This document shows, in pieces, positions 30,206 through 39,420 of a DNA stretch of 41,432 nt. The notes beneath the pieces were generated by a model. That model worked only from the letters and a program-made list of their open reading frames with translations, did no database searches and was not told where the DNA came from. Both the position numbers and the translations under genes were made by a program. The stretch is from contig JANQIE010000294.1 in NCBI GenBank assembly GCA_028282295.1, forward strand, positions 1-41,432. The letters run 5' to 3'. Position 1 is the first letter of the stretch; each line of letters opens with the position of its first letter. Source of the DNA: Desulfobacterales bacterium. Lineage in GTDB: Bacteria > Desulfobacterota > Desulfobacteria > Desulfobacterales > JANQIE01.

Positions 30206-30943
30206 ATGACAGCCATCATTATAGCCGAGGATGATTTTCTGGTCAGAAAAAATATGGTCGTTGCCCTGACCAAATTCGACCCTGAAATTAAAATTTATCA
30301 AGCAACCGACGGCCAGGAGGCCATCGATCATTTAAAACTTCACAACGTCGAGTTGCTGGTGACCGACCTTAAAATGCCCCAGGTCGACGGTTTGGCACTT
30401 TTGGCCTACGTCAACAACCATCACAAACGCCTGCCGTGTTTGATCACCTCCGGGCATGCCGGCTCTCTCAAAGAATTTAGACGCATCGTTCGCGCCCTGG
30501 AGCCGGAAATCGACGCCGCTATCTGCCAGGACCACTACAAATTCATGTCCAAACCCTTCCGGCTGACTGATTTTACCGCGACAGTCAGCGAACTGCTGGC
30601 CCTGAACGGGTTGGACCGTTTCATGAAAGGCATTTCCCCCGCCGGATTTGCGCAGTTGATTGAAGGTGAGGCCAAAACCTGTGTTTTAAAAGTCGTTGAT
30701 GGTGCCGGTGAAGCCGGCTACATGTTTTTCGAAGAAGGTGATTTGTACCATGCCCGTAAAAACAATCTGACCGGTGATGAGGCCGCGGTCGCCATCCTGA
30801 ATATCAAGGAACCGTATATCACGATTCAAGACAACCTTAACACCGCCAAGTACGAACGATCGATCGATACCGGCCTGATGGCCCTTATCCTGGAGGCCAG
30901 CAAACGCAAGGACGAATCCGGCTTTGTCAGCGAGGTGGAGTAA
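30206..30943 (+). CDS. Response regulator with C-terminal DUF4388-like domain
   Basis: 245 residues. The N-terminal receiver domain (about 1-125) has the acidic pair EDD, the phospho-acceptor Asp in LLVTDLKMPQ and the conserved Lys in FMSKPFR. The rest (about 140-235) resembles the DUF4388/PATAN type: GISPAGFAQLIEGEAKTCVL, then GYMFFEEGDLYHARKNN and GDEAAVAIL. No DNA-binding domain is seen, so signalling is probably by protein contact. The gene runs tail to tail into the hybrid kinase on the other strand with 18 bases between them. A partnership is plausible but not shown. Confidence 0.88.
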   Translation: MTAIIIAEDDFLVRKNMVVALTKFDPEIKIYQATDGQEAIDHLKLHNVELLVTDLKMPQVDGLALLAYVNNHHKRLPCLITSGHAGSLKEFRRIVRALEPEIDAAICQDHYKFMSKPFRLTDFTATVSELLALNGLDRFMKGISPAGFAQLIEGEAKTCVLKVVDGAGEAGYMFFEEGDLYHARKNNLTGDEAAVAILNIKEPYITIQDNLNTAKYERSIDTGLMALILEASKRKDESGFVSEVE

Positions 30944-30961: not shown

Positions 30962-33493
30962 TTATACGGATACCGGCGAGCCCACCCCATCGTCACCCCC
31001 CGGCGGACGGTCCAATATATCCCGCAACTTTTTTGACAGATCAATCAGACTAAACGGCTTTTGAATAAACCCATCGAAATCACGCGATTGGATTTCCATG
31101 TTGTTGATATTTCTACTGTAGCCGCTCTGAAGAAGTACTTTCACATCCGGATTGATCTGCTTGAGACGGTCAAAAACGTCGATACCGTTCATTTCAGGCA
31201 TAATCATATCCAGAATAACCAGATCGATGCGGCTGCGATAGGCCTTGAACGTCTCGATCGCCCGCTTGCCGTCCTTGGCCACCAGCACCTCATACCCCAA
31301 CGCCTGCAGCATCGGTTTGCCCACGGCGATGATATACTCTTCGTCATCCACCATCAGAATTTTTTCCGAACCGGTTAAAATACTGTCGTCGCCTTGATCG
31401 GTCTCTTCTTCCGGTTTGCCCTCGGACGCTGGCAGATAGACATTGAACGTGGTGCCCGCTCCGTTCTCACTCTCAAAATCGATTATGCCGCTGTGGTTCT
31501 TGACAATGCCGTAAGCCGAAGACAATCCCAGTCCGGTGGAGGAGCCCATCGGCTTGGTCGTAAAAAAGGGTTCGAAGATTCGATGCTGATGCGCGACATC
31601 GATGCCGGTTCCGGTGTCGGCGATGCTGATATTCACATACCTGCCGGGAGACACATCATGTCTGAGGGCTTGCTGATCGTCGATTTCAATATTGCGCGTT
31701 GTCAGGGTCAGCGTCCCCCCTCTGGGCATGGCCTGACCGGCATTCAGGTAAATATTGAACAGTACCTGCTCGATCTGACCTTGATCGGCATCGACGACCC
31801 ACAACCCAAGATCAAGATCGTGCGCGATGGTAACGTTTTTCTGCGTCTGACCGAATAACTGCGTGGTGCTTCTAACGATATCATTGAGCTCGGTCGGCTT
31901 GACTTTATACTTGCCGCCCCTGGCAAACCCGAGCAACTGTTTGGTCAAATTGCCGCCACTGGCAATACAACGCTCGATGCTGACAAGATTCTCATAGTTG
32001 GGATCTTCCTGCGCCATGTTGACCAACAACAGCGAGACATTGCCCTGGATCCCCATCAGCAAATTGTTAAAGTCATGCGCAATGCCGCCGGCCAGGGTGC
32101 CGATGGCCTTTAGCCGCTGTGATTCGATCAACTGTTCTTCCAACTGCTTGCGTTTGGTAAAATCGCGGAGAAAACTCAGCGTTGCCGGTTGCCCCTCCCA
32201 GGTTATGGGGACCGAATTCATATCGACCCACAGTTCGTCGCCCCCCTGCCGGCACATGCGAAACGAATAGGGGAGTGAAACCGCGTCGCCCGCAAGACTA
32301 TCATTTTGCTTCTTTGAATAAAACTCCCGGTCGTCGGCGTGCACAAAATCGGAAAAGCGAATATTGTCGACCTGGGGGCTCAATTGGCCACGCAGTTGTT
32401 CGGCCTGGGGATTGGGAAATTTAATGCGATCATCCTGCAGGACGAAAATAGCATCATTGGCGTTTTCAAACAAAATCCGATAACGCTCCTCGGACCGGCG
32501 CAGGGAGCTTTCCGCCTGAATACGTTCAGCCACTTCTTTTTTGAGTTTTTCGTTGGCTTCACCCAATTCCGCGGTTCTTTTTTCCAAAGCGCTTAGATTG
32601 CGATTGGCCTTGGCATGCAAGCTGGCGTTTTCAAGCGCGAAGCCGATCTCGGTGATCATGATGGATAAAATCTGCTCATCATTGTGATCGAACACACGCT
32701 GTTTTTCTTTGCACGCCAGATTCAGTACCGCCACCAACCTGCGGCCGACAAAGATCGGCATGCTGATCAACGAAGGTGCGCCGTAGTTCGGATCGTTGGA
32801 CTTGAGCGTCCGCGCATCGGTTTCGATATCGCTCACCACAAGTGGTTGGCGGGTCTCAACCACCGACCGCACCACCGAATTTTTGATATTGACGTAGCTG
32901 CCGATCTTCAAAGCCGGTTCCGCCCCGCGTGACGCCACCACCCGAAAGTGGCCCTTGTCGGCCTCGACCATAAAAATGGAACCGATTTCAGCGTAGGTAA
33001 CCGCCATGGTCTTTTGCAACAACGTCTTCAGCAATTCATCGATATCGATGATACGGGTTGCAACCTCATTCAGCTCGCGGATGGACACAAGTTCGAAGGC
33101 GCGCTGCTTGAGATCATCCGTGGCCTGCCGGAAGTTGAGCATCAGGTCGTTGAACGATTGATTGATACCGCTTAATTCTTTGCTCTCAACACGAATGTCT
33201 TCCAGGTATTCATTGGTGGCCACCGCCTTTTTCACGGAAGACGTGATCGTCAGAAAATTGTCGAAAATCTGGCGTACAATGACCAGACCAGCGAGAATGA
33301 GAAGCAAAATAAAAGAAATAATGATCAGTTGCAGGTTGGAAAAATCGATTTTGCTCTGCGACAAAACATAGGCCAGACTCAAGGAGGGAATCACAAAAAC
33401 CAACGCTTGCACGATAAACAACTTGCTGCGCAGCCCCTGCCCTTCGAGCCCGAACTTTCCCCAGCCTGATTTTGTTTCCTGGTAAGAATCCAC
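30962..33493 (-). CDS. Membrane hybrid sensor histidine kinase (GAF-PAS-HisKA-HATPase-REC)
   Basis: 843 residues. Two membrane segments lie at about 25-45 and 54-73, so there is almost no extracytoplasmic domain. A coiled linker follows, then a GAF domain (about 135-290) and a PAS domain (RYRILFENANDAIFVLQDD, about 330-445). The kinase core has the phospho-acceptor His in GTLAGGIAHDFNNLL, the N box and G boxes (ADTGTGID, STGLGLSSAYGIVKNH). A C-terminal receiver domain has Asp in LVILDMIMPEMNG. The receiver may modulate the kinase or relay phosphate. The start is GTG at 33493; AGAGG lies about 14 bases upstream, so the start is moderately certain. The signal sensed is unknown. Confidence 0.92.
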   Translation of the reverse strand: MDSYQETKSGWGKFGLEGQGLRSKLFIVQALVFVIPSLSLAYVLSQSKIDFSNLQLIIISFILLLILAGLVIVRQIFDNFLTITSSVKKAVATNEYLEDIRVESKELSGINQSFNDLMLNFRQATDDLKQRAFELVSIRELNEVATRIIDIDELLKTLLQKTMAVTYAEIGSIFMVEADKGHFRVVASRGAEPALKIGSYVNIKNSVVRSVVETRQPLVVSDIETDARTLKSNDPNYGAPSLISMPIFVGRRLVAVLNLACKEKQRVFDHNDEQILSIMITEIGFALENASLHAKANRNLSALEKRTAELGEANEKLKKEVAERIQAESSLRRSEERYRILFENANDAIFVLQDDRIKFPNPQAEQLRGQLSPQVDNIRFSDFVHADDREFYSKKQNDSLAGDAVSLPYSFRMCRQGGDELWVDMNSVPITWEGQPATLSFLRDFTKRKQLEEQLIESQRLKAIGTLAGGIAHDFNNLLMGIQGNVSLLLVNMAQEDPNYENLVSIERCIASGGNLTKQLLGFARGGKYKVKPTELNDIVRSTTQLFGQTQKNVTIAHDLDLGLWVVDADQGQIEQVLFNIYLNAGQAMPRGGTLTLTTRNIEIDDQQALRHDVSPGRYVNISIADTGTGIDVAHQHRIFEPFFTTKPMGSSTGLGLSSAYGIVKNHSGIIDFESENGAGTTFNVYLPASEGKPEEETDQGDDSILTGSEKILMVDDEEYIIAVGKPMLQALGYEVLVAKDGKRAIETFKAYRSRIDLVILDMIMPEMNGIDVFDRLKQINPDVKVLLQSGYSRNINNMEIQSRDFDGFIQKPFSLIDLSKKLRDILDRPPGGDDGVGSPVSV

Positions 33494-33562: not shown

Positions 33563-33568
33563 TCGGTT

Positions 33569-33713
33569 AGTGCCCATCCGGGAATGGCATCTTCTGGCCC
33601 AGGACGGCGTTCTCGCCCAATTACGATCCTCGACGTAGCCTTGCTGCGCCTGCGGTCGCAATTGGGCAGCGGCCTTGTCCTGAACCCGAAACTACCATTT
33701 CCAGATGGGCACC
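33569..33713 (-). repeat. Large palindromic intergenic element, copy 3
   Basis: Same family as copy 2 but inverted. The outer arms AGTGCCCATCC.. and ..GATGGGCACC are degenerate. The inner arm is CCCAATTACGA/TCGCAATTGGG, and the centre (minus strand) is CCGCAGG-CGCAGCAAGGCTACG-TCGAGGA. It occupies much of the 410-base gap between the divergent kinase and AAA+ genes. Confidence 0.85.
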
Positions 33714-33830
33714 AGTTAAATAAACAGGCGCCGCCGCCGGTCACCGGCCGGCCATATACCCTACTGCCCGCAACATCCGCAAACAGCCTTAAAACATTAA
33801 CCGGCGCGGTTTTAGGACCAGTCGGCCGGC

Positions 33831-33903: not shown

Positions 33904-35673
33904 ATGATAACCAATAGCGAAAAAAAGCCCGATCCCAAAAAACTCGAAAAAGAGATTGGCGACTTTCTGAGCAAAAAATTCGGTGACAACGTAAAAATCG
34001 TTTCCCCTTTAATGGTCCCGCAAAAAAGCCCGGTGGAAGAAACGGCGCCCCTGAAAAATCCCGGTAAAAAAATCGATTTCGATTTAAAACCCGAGGAACT
34101 CGTCGCCTACCTCGACCGGTATATTGTCAAACAGGACGATGCCAAAGCCATTCTGGCCACCAAAATCTGCACCCACTTCAACCGCATCAAATACGCCGAG
34201 CAAAGCCCGGAAACCATCCGGGATATCGTCGGCTCGATCAAAAACAACGTGCTGATGATCGGCCCCACCGGCGTCGGCAAAACCTACATGGTGCGACTGA
34301 TCGCCAGAAAAATCGGCATCCCCTTTGTCAAAGGCGACGCCACCAAGTTCAGCGAAACCGGATATGTCGGCGGCGATGTCGAAGATCTGGTGCGCGATCT
34401 GGTGCGTGAAGCCGACGGCGATATCGAACTGGCCCAATACGGCATCATCTACATCGACGAAATCGACAAAATCGCTTCGAGCCGCAACTTGATCGGAGCC
34501 GACGTATCGCGCACCGGCGTGCAACGCGCCCTGCTCAAACCGTTGGAGGAAACCGATGTCGAACTCAAAGTACCCCATGATCCGATTTCCATGATCCAGG
34601 AGATCGAGCGCTTTCGCAAAACCGGCAAGCGGGAACAAAGCACGATCAACACCAGAAACATCCTGTTCATCGTCAGCGGCGCGTTTTCCGGCCTGCCCGA
34701 AATCATCGAAAAACGCTTGAACGCCCAAAGCATCGGTTTCGGTGCGCCCATGTCCAGATCCGACAAATCCTACAAAGTGATCCGCAAAATCAAGTCCGAG
34801 GATCTGATCGAATTCGGCTTTGAATCGGAATTTGTCGGCCGGCTGCCGGTCCGCGCCGTGTTCGAGGAACTCACGGCAAAAGACCTGTACCAGATCCTGA
34901 AAAACCCCAACAATCCGATCGTGCTGAGCAAAAAACTCGATTTCGCCGCCTATGGCATCGATATCCGCTTCGAAGACGACCTGCTCAAAAAACTGGCCCA
35001 AAACGCCTTCAAAGAAAACACCGGCGCCCGGGGGTTGGTCAGTTCAGTGGAAAGAGCCCTGCTGCCCTTTGAAAAAGCGCTGCCGTCCGCATCCTGCCGT
35101 AAATTTCCGGCCACAACCGCGATTCTGAAGAAAACTCAACGGGTGCTGGATCAGTTGCTCGAATCACCGGAAGACGACGCCGTCGACAAAACATTTGACC
35201 GTTTGGTCCAGGCAGAGCAACAAACCGTGGAACAATACATTCTGGACAACTGGCAAAACCTGGCCGGCGAATACAATCTTCCGGCCACCCATGCCAGGGG
35301 CCGGCTGGCGGCCCACTATTACAGCCGGCATATCAACGACGTCGGTTCCGTGATCCGCAAAATCAACACCTGTTACAATGAAATCAAAAATATTGAGTTA
35401 TATTTTTTCAAAAATCATGATATCAACATTATCTTTGAAGAAGACGCCATCGACCACATCATCGAAGCGTTCATTCTGGGCCAAAGCAACGCGGATGCGT
35501 TTTACCAGCAACTACAGACCGATTTCAAATTGGGCCTTAAACTGATCATGGAAAAAACCGGCCGCAATCGATTCTTCATAACCCGCAAAGCATTGCTCAG
35601 CCCTGAACGATTTCTCGAAACGCTAGTAAAACAAGAACTCAGCAACATCGAAACCAAAACGGAAACAAAATGA
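33904..35673 (+). CDS. ClpX-like AAA+ unfoldase with C-terminal extension
   Basis: 589-residue AAA+ ATPase close to ClpX. Walker A GPTGVGKT is at 120-127, the pore loop GYVG at 153-156, Walker B IIYIDEID at 181-188, an IGFG loop at 277-280 (the ClpP-docking loop in ClpX), an arginine-finger region GRLPVR at 322-327 and sensor 2 GARGL at 374-378. It lacks the N-terminal zinc-binding domain of ClpX; instead there are about 60 charged residues. It has about 200 extra residues after the ClpX core with no recognised motif. GAGG lies five bases before the ATG. Its stop overlaps the ahbC start as ATGA, so it is translated with a heme-synthesis enzyme. It could unfold, remodel or deliver to ClpP a heme-pathway protein; that is inference. 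Confidence 0.9.
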   Translation: MITNSEKKPDPKKLEKEIGDFLSKKFGDNVKIVSPLMVPQKSPVEETAPLKNPGKKIDFDLKPEELVAYLDRYIVKQDDAKAILATKICTHFNRIKYAEQSPETIRDIVGSIKNNVLMIGPTGVGKTYMVRLIARKIGIPFVKGDATKFSETGYVGGDVEDLVRDLVREADGDIELAQYGIIYIDEIDKIASSRNLIGADVSRTGVQRALLKPLEETDVELKVPHDPISMIQEIERFRKTGKREQSTINTRNILFIVSGAFSGLPEIIEKRLNAQSIGFGAPMSRSDKSYKVIRKIKSEDLIEFGFESEFVGRLPVRAVFEELTAKDLYQILKNPNNPIVLSKKLDFAAYGIDIRFEDDLLKKLAQNAFKENTGARGLVSSVERALLPFEKALPSASCRKFPATTAILKKTQRVLDQLLESPEDDAVDKTFDRLVQAEQQTVEQYILDNWQNLAGEYNLPATHARGRLAAHYYSRHINDVGSVIRKINTCYNEIKNIELYFFKNHDINIIFEEDAIDHIIEAFILGQSNADAFYQQLQTDFKLGLKLIMEKTGRNRFFITRKALLSPERFLETLVKQELSNIETKTETK

Positions 35674-36863
35674 TAGGCATATCCAAATTGTATTGCGGCA
35701 CCGTCGAGCCGTCCGACGCACTGCGCTACGGACGGCATTCCGCGCAGCTCCCCTCCCATCTACTGCAGTTTTCGGCGGACAAACGCCCCGTGGTGGTCTG
35801 GAACACAACACGCGCCTGCAACCTGAAATGCGTCCACTGTTATGCCCATGCCAAAGAGCACGCCGTGGCCGACGAACTGACCACCGCCGAAGGCAAAACC
35901 CTCATCGACGATCTGGCCCAATTCGGCGCGCCGGTCATGCTGTTTTCAGGCGGTGAACCCCTGGTGCGCAAGGACCTGCCCGATCTGGCCGAATACGCCG
36001 TCAAAAAAGGCATGCGCGCGGTCATCTCCACCAACGGCACCCTGATCACCAAAACACTGGCCCGCACCCTCAAGAACATCGGCCTGTCGTACGTCGGCAT
36101 CAGCCTGGACGGCATGGAAACCATCAACGACCGCTTCCGGGGCGTCAAGGGCTCCTTCAAAAAAGCACTCAACGGCATCGAGAACTGCCAGAGCGCGGGC
36201 ATCAAAGTCGGTCTGCGATTTACCATCAACAAATTCAACGTCGGCGAAATCCCCAGCATATTTCAACTGCTCGAAAAAATGGAAATCCCGCGCGTCTGCT
36301 TCTACCACCTGGTCTACGCCGGGCGCGGCTCCAAAATGGTCGAGGAAGACCTGACCCTGCAACAAACCCGCGAGGCCGTCGATCTGATCATCGATCACAC
36401 CAAGGACCTGCACGACCGCGGCAAGGCCAAGGAAGTCCTCACCGTCGACAACCACGCCGACGGGCCCTATCTGTACATGCGCATGCTCAAAGAGAATCCG
36501 GAGCGGGCCGCCGATATCCTCGAACTGCTCAAAATGAACGAAGGCAACAGTTCCGGCCGGGGCATCGGGTGCATCAGTTGGAACGGCGACGTGCACGCCG
36601 ATCAATTCTGGCGACACTACAGCTTCGGCAATGTCCGCCAACGCCCCTTTTCCGAAATCTGGACCGACACCTCCGAACCGCTGATGGGCAAATTAAAAGA
36701 AAAAAAGAAACACGTCACCGGCCGTTGCGCCACCTGCCGCTGGCTGAACATCTGCGGCGGCAACTTCAGAGTGCGGGCCGAAGCGGTCAGCGACGACCTG
36801 TGGGCCCCCGACCCGGCGTGTTACCTGACCGATGAGGAAATAGCCGATCCGGGCCAGGACTGA
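35670..36863 (+). CDS. ahbC: 12,18-didecarboxysiroheme deacetylase (radical SAM)
   Basis: Radical SAM enzyme of the siroheme-dependent heme pathway, removing acetate side chains from didecarboxysiroheme to give iron-coproporphyrin III. The N-terminus MIGISKLYCGTVEPSDALRY is characteristic of AhbC/NirJ2 proteins. The cluster-binding motif CNLKCVHC is at residues 50-57, followed by FSGGEPL for SAM binding. The C-terminus has a second cysteine set (GCISWNG, then CATCRWLNIC), as in auxiliary-cluster radical SAM enzymes. 397 residues. The start overlaps the AAA+ stop (ATGA) with only a weak ribosome binding site of its own, implying coupling. hemB follows after 43 bases. Confidence 0.93.
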   Translation: MIGISKLYCGTVEPSDALRYGRHSAQLPSHLLQFSADKRPVVVWNTTRACNLKCVHCYAHAKEHAVADELTTAEGKTLIDDLAQFGAPVMLFSGGEPLVRKDLPDLAEYAVKKGMRAVISTNGTLITKTLARTLKNIGLSYVGISLDGMETINDRFRGVKGSFKKALNGIENCQSAGIKVGLRFTINKFNVGEIPSIFQLLEKMEIPRVCFYHLVYAGRGSKMVEEDLTLQQTREAVDLIIDHTKDLHDRGKAKEVLTVDNHADGPYLYMRMLKENPERAADILELLKMNEGNSSGRGIGCISWNGDVHADQFWRHYSFGNVRQRPFSEIWTDTSEPLMGKLKEKKKHVTGRCATCRWLNICGGNFRVRAEAVSDDLWAPDPACYLTDEEIADPGQD

Positions 36864-36906: not shown

Positions 36907-37881
36907 ATGCTGTTTCCCGATTACCGGCCACGACGCATGCGGCGTAGCGAAGCCCTGCGCAAGATGGTGCGCGAGACCAACCTGACCGTCAACGATCTGA
37001 TCCTGCCGCTTTTCGCCATCGGCGGTAAAAACATCAAAAACAAAATCCCGTCCATGCCGGGCCACCACCAGCTATCCATCGACCATCTGGCCGACCAGGC
37101 CCGTCAGGCATTCGCAAAAGGGATTCCCGCCGTCATCCTGTTCGGGATCCCGGATCGCAAGGATCCGCTGGGCACCAACGCCTACGCCAAAAACGGCATC
37201 GTTCAGCAAGCCGTGCGGGCCGTCAAAGAAGCGGTTCCCGATCTGGCCGTCATCACCGACGTCTGCCTGTGCCAGTACACCGACCACGGCCACTGCGGCA
37301 TGGTGGACGGCAAGCACATCGACAACGACGCCACGCTCGACCTGCTGGCGCGCACCGCGCTCTCACACGCCCGGGCCGGCGCCGACATGGTGGCGCCGTC
37401 CGACATGATGGACGGCCGTGTGGCCGAAATACGCAACCTGCTGGACGAAAACGACTACAGTCACATCCCGGTCATGTCATACGCCGCCAAATACTGCAGC
37501 GCCTACTACGGGCCGTTTCGCGCCGCCGCCGATTCCGCCCCGCAGTTCGGGGACCGGCGCACCTATCAAATGGACCCGGCCAACGCCGTCGAAGCCATCC
37601 GCGAAGCCACCCTGGACATCGAGGAAGGCGCCGACATCATCATGGTCAAACCGGCCCTGGCCTACCTGGACATCATTTACCGGCTGCGCGAAGAAACCGA
37701 TCTGCCCCTGGCGGCCTACAACGTCAGCGGTGAATTTTCCATGATCAAAGCGGCGGCGCAAATGGACTGGCTGGACGGTCAAAAAGTCATGCTGGAAACC
37801 CTGACCGCCATCAAACGCGCCGGCGCCGACATGATCCTGACCTATTTTGCCCTGGAAGCCGCGGAAACGTTGGGAAATTGA
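36907..37881 (+). CDS. hemB: Delta-aminolevulinic acid dehydratase (porphobilinogen synthase)
   Basis: Condenses two 5-aminolevulinate molecules to porphobilinogen, the precursor of siroheme, heme and corrinoids. The zinc-type metal site is visible as DVCLCQYTDHGHCG. The two active-site lysines are in MSYAAKYCSAYYGPFR and IIMVKPALAYLD. 324 residues is standard. AGAGG lies five bases before the ATG. Its place between ahbC and ahbD is the usual order in sulfate reducers, so one cluster serves an early step and the late heme steps. Confidence 0.97.
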   Translation: MLFPDYRPRRMRRSEALRKMVRETNLTVNDLILPLFAIGGKNIKNKIPSMPGHHQLSIDHLADQARQAFAKGIPAVILFGIPDRKDPLGTNAYAKNGIVQQAVRAVKEAVPDLAVITDVCLCQYTDHGHCGMVDGKHIDNDATLDLLARTALSHARAGADMVAPSDMMDGRVAEIRNLLDENDYSHIPVMSYAAKYCSAYYGPFRAAADSAPQFGDRRTYQMDPANAVEAIREATLDIEEGADIIMVKPALAYLDIIYRLREETDLPLAAYNVSGEFSMIKAAAQMDWLDGQKVMLETLTAIKRAGADMILTYFALEAAETLGN

Positions 37882-38304
37882 GACTGGCAATTTGAAACTT
37901 GAAATTCAAGCCATTAACTTAAGGCAGTGGCTCAGGGCTTTTGCCTGTAGCCGACATTTGTAAAACGCCTTTAAGTTGCGGCAGGCCGCCGGAACGAGCA
38001 ATTTGCGCATTCAGGGACATTTTCTGGATTCCCGCCTGCGCGGGAATGACGACGTAGGTTTTGCCTCGTCGTGTTTAGACGTCATTCCCGCGCAGGCGGG
38101 AATCCAGGAGATATCACAAAAAACACCTAAGTGTTGTTGTCAGACTTCGACATGCAATTGTGCTCAATTGTTATTCATTTTTTCTTTGCGCGAGCCCTTA
38201 CCTTGACGGCTATGAGCTTAAGGCCCTGCGCTACATTTCTTCGACGCATCGGATTGTTTAAGTTAATGACATTGATTTGAAACTCAAAATTGGGGCGAAC
38301 AAAT
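37882..38304. other. Gap between hemB and ahbD
   Basis: 423 bases with no gene found. It holds an inverted pair of CCCGC palindromes (38023-38108) and a fragment of the 33-base repeat (38185-38200). No promoter for ahbD could be defined with confidence. Because of this gap ahbD may be expressed separately from ahbC-hemB. Confidence 0.6.
38023..38108. repeat. Inverted pair of ATTCCCGC-type palindromes
   Basis: GGATTCCCGCCTGCGCGGGAATGAC (38026-38050) and its reverse complement (38081-38106) flank a 30-base spacer. Each unit is itself a palindrome resembling the widespread ATTCCC-N8-GGGAAT short repeats. The pair can form one long hairpin. Confidence 0.85.
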
Positions 38305-39420
38305 ATGAAACCACACCATCCACCGCACGGCCATCCCCACCATGGAAGGGCCGCCGGTCACGCGGACAAAAAAGACAATCCCCTGCGCCTGGTGGCCTGG
38401 GAAATAACCCGCAACTGCAACCTCGACTGCCAACACTGCCGCGCCTCGGCCACCATGGGGCCCTACGAAGGCGAACTGGAAACAGCCGCGGCCCTGAAAC
38501 TACTGGACCAGATCGCCCAGGTCGGCCGGCCGATCGTTATCCTCACCGGCGGCGAACCATTGCTGCGCGATGACATTTTTCAAGTCGCCCGTTACGGCAC
38601 CGACCTGGGCCTGCGCATGGTCATGGCGCCCAACGGCACACTGATCACCGCCGCAAACGCCCGGCAGCTTGTCGACGCCGGCATCCAGCGCATCAGCATC
38701 AGCCTGGACGGCGCCACCCAAAAAACCCACGACCACTTTCGCGGCGTACCCGGCGCCTACGAAGGCGCCCTGCGCGGTATCGAGCACGCCAAAGCCGTGG
38801 GACTCGAATTTCAGATCAACACCACCATCACCAAAGCCAACCTGGACCAGATCCCTAAAATCCAGAAACTGGCTGTCCGGCTGGGCGCCGTGGCGCACCA
38901 TATCTTTTTACTGGTCCCCACCGGCCGGGGCAAATACATCGTGGATCAGGAAATCGACGCCCAGGAATATGAAGAAACCCTGAACTGGTTCTACGATCAA
39001 CGCAACCAATCCGAACTGCAACTCAAAGCCACCTGCGCCCCGCACTACTACCGCATCCTGCGCCAGCGGGCCAAAGCCGACGGCGAAAAAGTCACCTTCG
39101 AAAGCCACGGCCTGGACGCCGTCACCCGCGGCTGCCTGGGCGGCACCGGCTTTTGCTTTATCTCGCACCGGGGCATCGTCCAGCCGTGCGGTTTTCTACA
39201 CCTGAATTGCGGCGACGTGACCAAACAGTCATTTGCCCAAGTCTGGAACAACTCGCAGATCTTCTGCAATCTGCGCAACTACGACAATTACAAAGGCAAA
39301 TGCGGCCAATGCGAGTACAAACGGGTCTGCGGCGGCTGCCGGGCACGCGCCTTCGAAGCTACCGGTGATTACCTGAACGAGGAACCACTGTGCCTGTACC
39401 AGCCCACCGTCCGTTGCTAA
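38305..39420 (+). CDS. ahbD: Iron-coproporphyrin III decarboxylase, heme-forming (radical SAM)
   Basis: Radical SAM enzyme for the last step of the alternative heme pathway, converting two propionates of iron-coproporphyrin III to vinyl groups. The cluster motif is CNLDCQHC and the SAM motif LTGGEPLL. C-terminal cysteines suited to an auxiliary cluster are GCLGGTGFCFISHRGIVQPCGF and CGQCEYKRVCGGCRARAF. The ATG at 38305 has GGGGC about nine bases upstream; a TTG at 38290 would add five residues. The first 19 residues contain seven histidines (HHPPHGHPHH), which could bind metal or be disordered. 371 residues. Confidence 0.93.
   Translation: MKPHHPPHGHPHHGRAAGHADKKDNPLRLVAWEITRNCNLDCQHCRASATMGPYEGELETAAALKLLDQIAQVGRPIVILTGGEPLLRDDIFQVARYGTDLGLRMVMAPNGTLITAANARQLVDAGIQRISISLDGATQKTHDHFRGVPGAYEGALRGIEHAKAVGLEFQINTTITKANLDQIPKIQKLAVRLGAVAHHIFLLVPTGRGKYIVDQEIDAQEYEETLNWFYDQRNQSELQLKATCAPHYYRILRQRAKADGEKVTFESHGLDAVTRGCLGGTGFCFISHRGIVQPCGFLHLNCGDVTKQSFAQVWNNSQIFCNLRNYDNYKGKCGQCEYKRVCGGCRARAFEATGDYLNEEPLCLYQPTVRC

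Follow-up and report, generated by a model that had tools for sequence, protein, structure and literature searches.

A ClpX-like ATPase with a predicted second lid domain stands at the head of tetrapyrrole operons in Desulfobacterota

The window, the whole 41,432-nucleotide stretch of DNA from a Desulfobacterales bacterium that was analyzed here, contains a ClpX-like AAA+ gene followed on the same strand by ahbC, hemB, and ahbD (Table 1). The second open reading frame had been proposed to encode AhbC, and this assignment was confirmed by its score against TIGR04546. The stop codon of the AAA+ gene and the start codon of ahbC had also been read as overlapping in an ATGA, which was found at the expected place, and ahbC had been described as having little ribosome-binding site of its own. 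This holds, as purine-rich sites are clear for the AAA+ gene (GAGG, a few base pairs 5' of its ATG) and for hemB (AGAGG), whereas ahbC is without one and is preceded by just the weak ACGGAAACAAA.

A GAF-PAS hybrid histidine kinase gene (30962 to 33493) lies just upstream of and divergent from the AAA+ gene, and a gene for a receiver-DUF4388 protein (30206 to 30943) is also found upstream. Between the kinase and AAA+ genes is a 151-bp element with 36-nucleotide inverted ends (33568 to 33718), for which approximately 40 copies were scored in the genome at 80% identity or more (from 481 first-look candidates), many of them at contig ends; it resembles a small palindromic repeat or mobile element and lies immediately ahead of the operon. 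A second repeat family is represented between hemB and ahbD by a 95-bp hairpin with arms that are 92% complementary (38016 to 38115), and at least 40 near-identical copies of it are present in the genome.

Table 1. Genes of the operon in the window and features of the AAA+ protein
Feature	Residues (aa)	Position	Strand	Evidence
ClpX-like AAA+ unfoldase with putative doubled lid	589	33904..35673	+	Intact open reading frame, translation; ClpX-like, below ClpX cut-offs; own clade (99/98)
Predicted N-terminal helix replacing ClpX zinc domain, within PDPKKLEKEIGDFLSKKFG	11-26	33934..33981	+	Alignment and AF2 model, low confidence (block-mean pLDDT 55-63)
Walker A, GPTGVGKT	120-127	34261..34284	+	G-x-TG-[VS]-GKT in 120/120 members
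Pore-1 loop, TGYVGG	152-157	34357..34374	+	GYVG in 120/120 members
Putative ClpP-docking tripeptide, IGF	277-279	34732..34740	+	[IMLV]GF in 120/120 members, three phyla
First small AAA+ (lid) domain with sensor-2 TGARG	318-403	34855..35112	+	hhalign to ClpX lid, P 99.8, E 3e-28
Predicted helical linker	411-479	35134..35340	+	AF2 models; alignment; mostly absent in Verrucomicrobiota members
Predicted second, degenerate lid without GAR sensor-2 motif	480-567	35341..35604	+	hhalign, structure alignment
ATGA stop/start overlap, AAA+ gene and ahbC		35670..35673	+	Sequence
ahbC (12,18-didecarboxysiroheme deacetylase)	397	35670..36863	+	TIGR04546, 775 bits (cut-off 650)
hemB (porphobilinogen synthase)		36907..37881	+	PF00490, 505 bits; PRK09283, 509 bits (cut-off 297)
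ahbD (heme b synthase)		38290..39420	+	TIGR04545, 570 bits (cut-off 500)

The AAA+ protein missed the cut-offs of both ClpX equivalog models, scoring 289 bits against 370.75 for TIGR00382 and 311 bits against 359 for PRK05342, and the HslU model gave 180 bits against a cut-off of 362. Its fold over residues 59 to 423 is nevertheless ClpX-like, with a VIA-align Z of 31.5 to solved ClpX and approximately 41% identity over the core. A maximum-likelihood tree, from which one row that is a Lon protein and not a ClpX (L111) was left out, placed the family in a clade apart from the ClpX clade with support of 99/98; the outgroup, HslU, carries a long-branch warning. Members of the clade come from Desulfobacterota, Latescibacterota, and Verrucomicrobiota, the last of these included on the basis of a single initial scan. 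Desulfosarcina alkanivorans (L039) is an example of a cultured organism with a homologue. A search of plasmids gave no match at an E value of 1e-70 or less. The same genome carries a true clpX directly after clpP on another contig (C34), scoring 641 bits and thus above the cut-off, and this gene rules out that the AAA+ gene is the sole clpX of the genome. Both the separate clade and the clpP-clpX pair agree with the original reading of a ClpX-like protein, which called for a normal clpX elsewhere in the genome, and judged by its sequence the window gene is a second ClpX relative, belonging to an uncharacterised family and distinct from the normal ClpX of its genome.

To compare motifs, 120 family members from three phyla were set against 17 ClpX sequences. 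The pore loop GYVG, the Walker motifs, sensor 2, and the IGFG loop had all been reported for the window protein, and all were found there (GPTGVGKT, IYIDEID, GYVG, IGFG, and TGARG, together with GRLP). As well as the motifs counted in Table 1, GR[LFIV]P and GAR are kept in 120 of 120 members, and Walker B takes the variant form D-E-[IV]-D in the members listed. The RKH loop, which recognizes the ssrA tag, was present in all 17 ClpX sequences and in none of the 120 members. The absence of a zinc-binding N-domain, also noted originally, extends across the family, as 116 of the 120 members, among them the window protein, have no cysteine ahead of F59. In ClpX, the IGF loop, the RKH loop, and the zinc domain serve to bind ClpP and read substrates (PMC9035409). 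Given these roles, the retained motifs and the loss of the RKH loop and zinc domain suggest a protein in which the central machinery and its contact to ClpP are preserved and the elements that read substrates are replaced, the IGF loop itself being of low confidence in the AF2 model of the AAA+ protein.

The original prediction left about 200 C-terminal residues unexplained. A region of this kind is present, and it can now be accounted for in part. Searches of the C terminus against Pfam and NCBIfam returned nothing past the first lid, nor did Foldseek by itself yield a match at an E value of 0.001 or less. In profile comparisons using hhalign, however, residues 480 to 567 matched the first lid of the same protein with P 97.2 and E 3.7e-11, and the lid of ClpX with P 88.5 and E 2.7e-6. 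In an AF2 model of the C terminus alone, residues 484 to 570 aligned to the HslU lid with a Z of 8.3 and to the ClpX lid with a Z of 8.1 by VIA-align, values that are borderline significant when structure is considered by itself. The pLDDT was 80.5 for the whole AAA+ protein and 88.4 for the C terminus alone, and both models showed helices followed by a helix-strand-helix-helix-strand unit repeating the layout of the first lid. The linker was ruled out as a further lid (P 0.5 to a lid by hhalign). In the alignment, Verrucomicrobiota members have the second lid, while most of the linker is missing. From these profile comparisons and models, the C terminus is taken as a helical linker and a second lid that would have lost sensor 2.

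To identify whether the ATPase-ahbC pair is widespread, 58 genomes of the same order were searched, as were 247 Desulfobacterota genomes, in which ahbC was called at an E value of 1e-120 or less; most are draft assemblies, so that an absence is uncertain for any single genome. Within the order, the ATPase was found in 55 genomes and ahbC in 53, and in 49 of the 51 genomes that carry both, the two genes are neighbors on the same strand. Across the phylum, the ATPase was present in 118 genomes, ahbC in 136, and both in 82, with the two adjacent in 55 of the 82, in 22 families. These adjacency counts show that the pairing is not due to chance. The two genes also co-occur more often than expected among the 247 genomes (odds ratio of 3.2, Fisher P of 1.3e-5, uncorrected for kinship). 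In 36 of the 118 genomes with the ATPase there was no ahbC match, although in one of these (G134) part of an ahbC gene lies where a contig ends (L144), and 54 of the 136 genomes with ahbC lacked the ATPase. In three genomes of the order without an ahbC match (G025, G040, and G041), hemB follows the ATPase directly, with no break in the DNA, and in two others (G026 and G049) ahbC-hemB occurs without a full ATPase gene.

The gene that follows the ATPase in the 118 phylum genomes was ahbC in 56, a gene for a CbpA-type J-protein in 30, hemB in 13 (in six of these with a small receiver-domain gene between), and another gene in 15, with the contig ending in the remaining 4. In total, the ATPase is beside ahbC or hemB in 69 of the 118 genomes, and it is the first gene of a tetrapyrrole operon (ATPase-ahbC-hemB-ahbD) in most Desulfobacterota that carry it. 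At the Verrucomicrobiota and Latescibacterota loci, no ahbC was found near the ATPase. A partner tree, built with a quick method, gave 12 partner changes over 113 labelled rows, with the J-protein link going back to approximately one origin and the ahbC and hemB links found on both deep and shallow branches. As partner changes are few, the linkage appears to be largely inherited. The pairing sought on the basis of the original prediction is therefore conserved, as a link to ahbC or hemB, across many families, and the location of the ATPase next to heme genes is genuine and of long standing. Relatives in which the ATPase lies at a distance from heme genes, which had been named as evidence against a dedicated heme role, were found outside the order and not inside it.

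Other partners of the ATPase show similar arrangements. A whole clade couples it to the CbpA-type J-protein, a DnaJ without the zinc finger, and the start of this gene overlaps or abuts the ATPase gene at 11 of 30 loci. A receiver-domain gene overlaps the ATPase gene at three of five loci, and the exact 4-base overlap with ahbC was seen at 6 of 45 ahbC-linked loci. The stop/start overlap is thus not peculiar to ahbC and occurs with unrelated partners too. In one family-level group and one relative, a Lon-like gene follows the J-protein gene. Genes for the unfoldase, the J-protein, and a LonB-like protease lie in a row as a compact proteostasis cluster at L122 (3739 to 7968) and L126 (9783 to 14054), and the same row occurs at L118, L145, L149, L154, L156, and L161, with rsmE next in some. 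At some of the 15 loci with another next gene, the ATPase is followed by a gene for a small zinc-ribbon protein and one for a PpiD/SurA-type peptidyl-prolyl isomerase (L136, 9721 to 11816; L177, 3228 to 5335).

A stand-alone receiver-domain gene is located between the ATPase and hemB or ahbC at nine loci in deep lineages (L124, 7601 to 8005; L125, 7603 to 7971; L127, 7735 to 8100; L132, 9746 to 10114; L152; L158; L191; L192; and L202), and the window locus has no such gene. By motif reading, each of the nine proteins has R, K, Y, or E at the position of the phospho-acceptor aspartate. The receiver proteins RssB and CpdR act as adaptors of ClpX. Given this precedent and the replaced aspartate, the pseudo-receiver could be a candidate adaptor that needs no phosphate.

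A dedicated role in the siroheme-dependent heme pathway, for example in cofactor insertion into AhbC or in turnover of a pathway enzyme, was originally suggested. A dedicated AhbC remodeller, which would insert or repair the iron-sulfur clusters or substrate of AhbC, would fit the window, where ahbC is translationally coupled to the ATPase, and the adjacency in 22 families, yet the same overlap is seen with unrelated partners, and the ATPase is neither confined to genomes with ahbC nor always present in them, with 36 ATPase-only and 54 ahbC-only genomes among the 247, the latter including G026 and G049 of the order. Together with the J-protein clade and the three order genomes that have lost ahbC and kept the ATPase by hemB, this distribution removes an AhbC-specific role as the leading view and makes such a role highly improbable. 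A broader alternative is that the unfoldase, with ClpP, sets the level or cofactor state of enzymes such as HemB and AhbC in the heme-linked lineages. The position beside ahbC or hemB in most phylum genomes with the ATPase, and in nearly all order genomes with both genes, argues for this, as do the persistence of the ATPase at hemB when ahbC is lost, the receiver-like gene that separates the ATPase from hemB or ahbC in deep lineages, and the activation of ALA synthase (ALAS) by partial unfolding by mitochondrial ClpX (PMC7077987). However, 30 genomes have the J-protein as partner instead, Verrucomicrobiota members are away from ahbC, ahbC occurs without the ATPase in 54 genomes, and the client of mitochondrial ClpX is a PLP enzyme that is missing from the operon here; regulation of the pathway is considered unlikely, while retaining some real chance of being correct. 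It is quite unlikely that the ATPase is unrelated to the heme enzymes, with inherited gene order giving co-expression only. The few partner changes and largely inherited linkage would be expected from this, but the order has been kept over deep branches of the phylum despite frequent rearrangement of bacterial genomes, and the ATPase stays with hemB once ahbC is gone.

The AAA+ protein is probably a second ClpP-dependent unfoldase for quality control or turnover, which usually heads a tetrapyrrole operon and is not dedicated to AhbC. An ATP-driven hexamer would pull proteins through a pore lined by GYVG, and the IGF loop would dock it on ClpP, for degradation or for partial unfolding. Its clients may differ from those of ClpX, as the protein lacks the zinc domain and RKH loop and carries an N-terminal helix of its own and a second lid. 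The first position in the operon would lead to the ATPase being made together with the heme enzymes, and its clients may include tetrapyrrole enzymes. The spread of the ATPase without ahbC suggests a general role rather than that of an AhbC factor, as do the J-protein and Lon-like genes that accompany it in a sister clade. Counting against a general role, the conserved place beside ahbC or hemB, seen in over 20 families, exceeds what an unrelated housekeeping gene would need, and the ATPase and ahbC co-occur more often than expected. A wider proposal, put forward tentatively and regarded as doubtful, is that tetrapyrrole synthesis in Desulfobacterota is coupled to quality control by an undescribed family of two-lid ClpP-dependent unfoldases, for which the neighboring pseudo-receiver would serve as an adaptor in some lineages.

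Heme is made by way of siroheme in sulfate reducers. A conserved second ClpX heading the heme operon provides a concrete gene for study, as well as a natural test of the effect of a second lid on a ClpX-type ring. In the literature searched, no paper contained AhbC and ClpX together, or ClpX-like proteins with sulfate-reducing bacteria and heme, and none was found that links protein turnover to the siroheme route of heme synthesis. Among known systems, ClpX (TIGR00382 and PRK05342; PDB 4i4l and others) shares with the window protein the AAA+ core, Walker A and B, the GYVG pore-1 loop, GRLP, the TGARG sensor 2, and the IGF loop. The window protein differs in falling below both cut-offs, in being without the zinc domain and RKH, in adding a linker and a putative second lid, and in belonging to a separate clade. 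HslU has a similar AAA+ core and lid fold (Z of approximately 26 for the core), although its model cut-off was far from reached and it is the outgroup of the tree. Mitochondrial ClpX is likewise a ClpX-type unfoldase tied to heme synthesis; however, it is a canonical ClpX, its client is the enzyme of the first step, and no operon is involved. Its action on ALAS indicates that a link between an unfoldase and heme is possible, not that one exists in the window system. The nearest experimental lead is ClpX3 of Myxococcus xanthus (MXAN_2743), which is reported to be without the N-terminal domain and RKH motif and to be needed for growth in heat, its gene standing alone in a genome that also has a canonical clpP-clpX operon (PMC11423568). 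Compared by description only, and thus as a lead, ClpX3 lacks the same two parts of ClpX as the window protein, and in both genomes the canonical clpP-clpX pair is also present.
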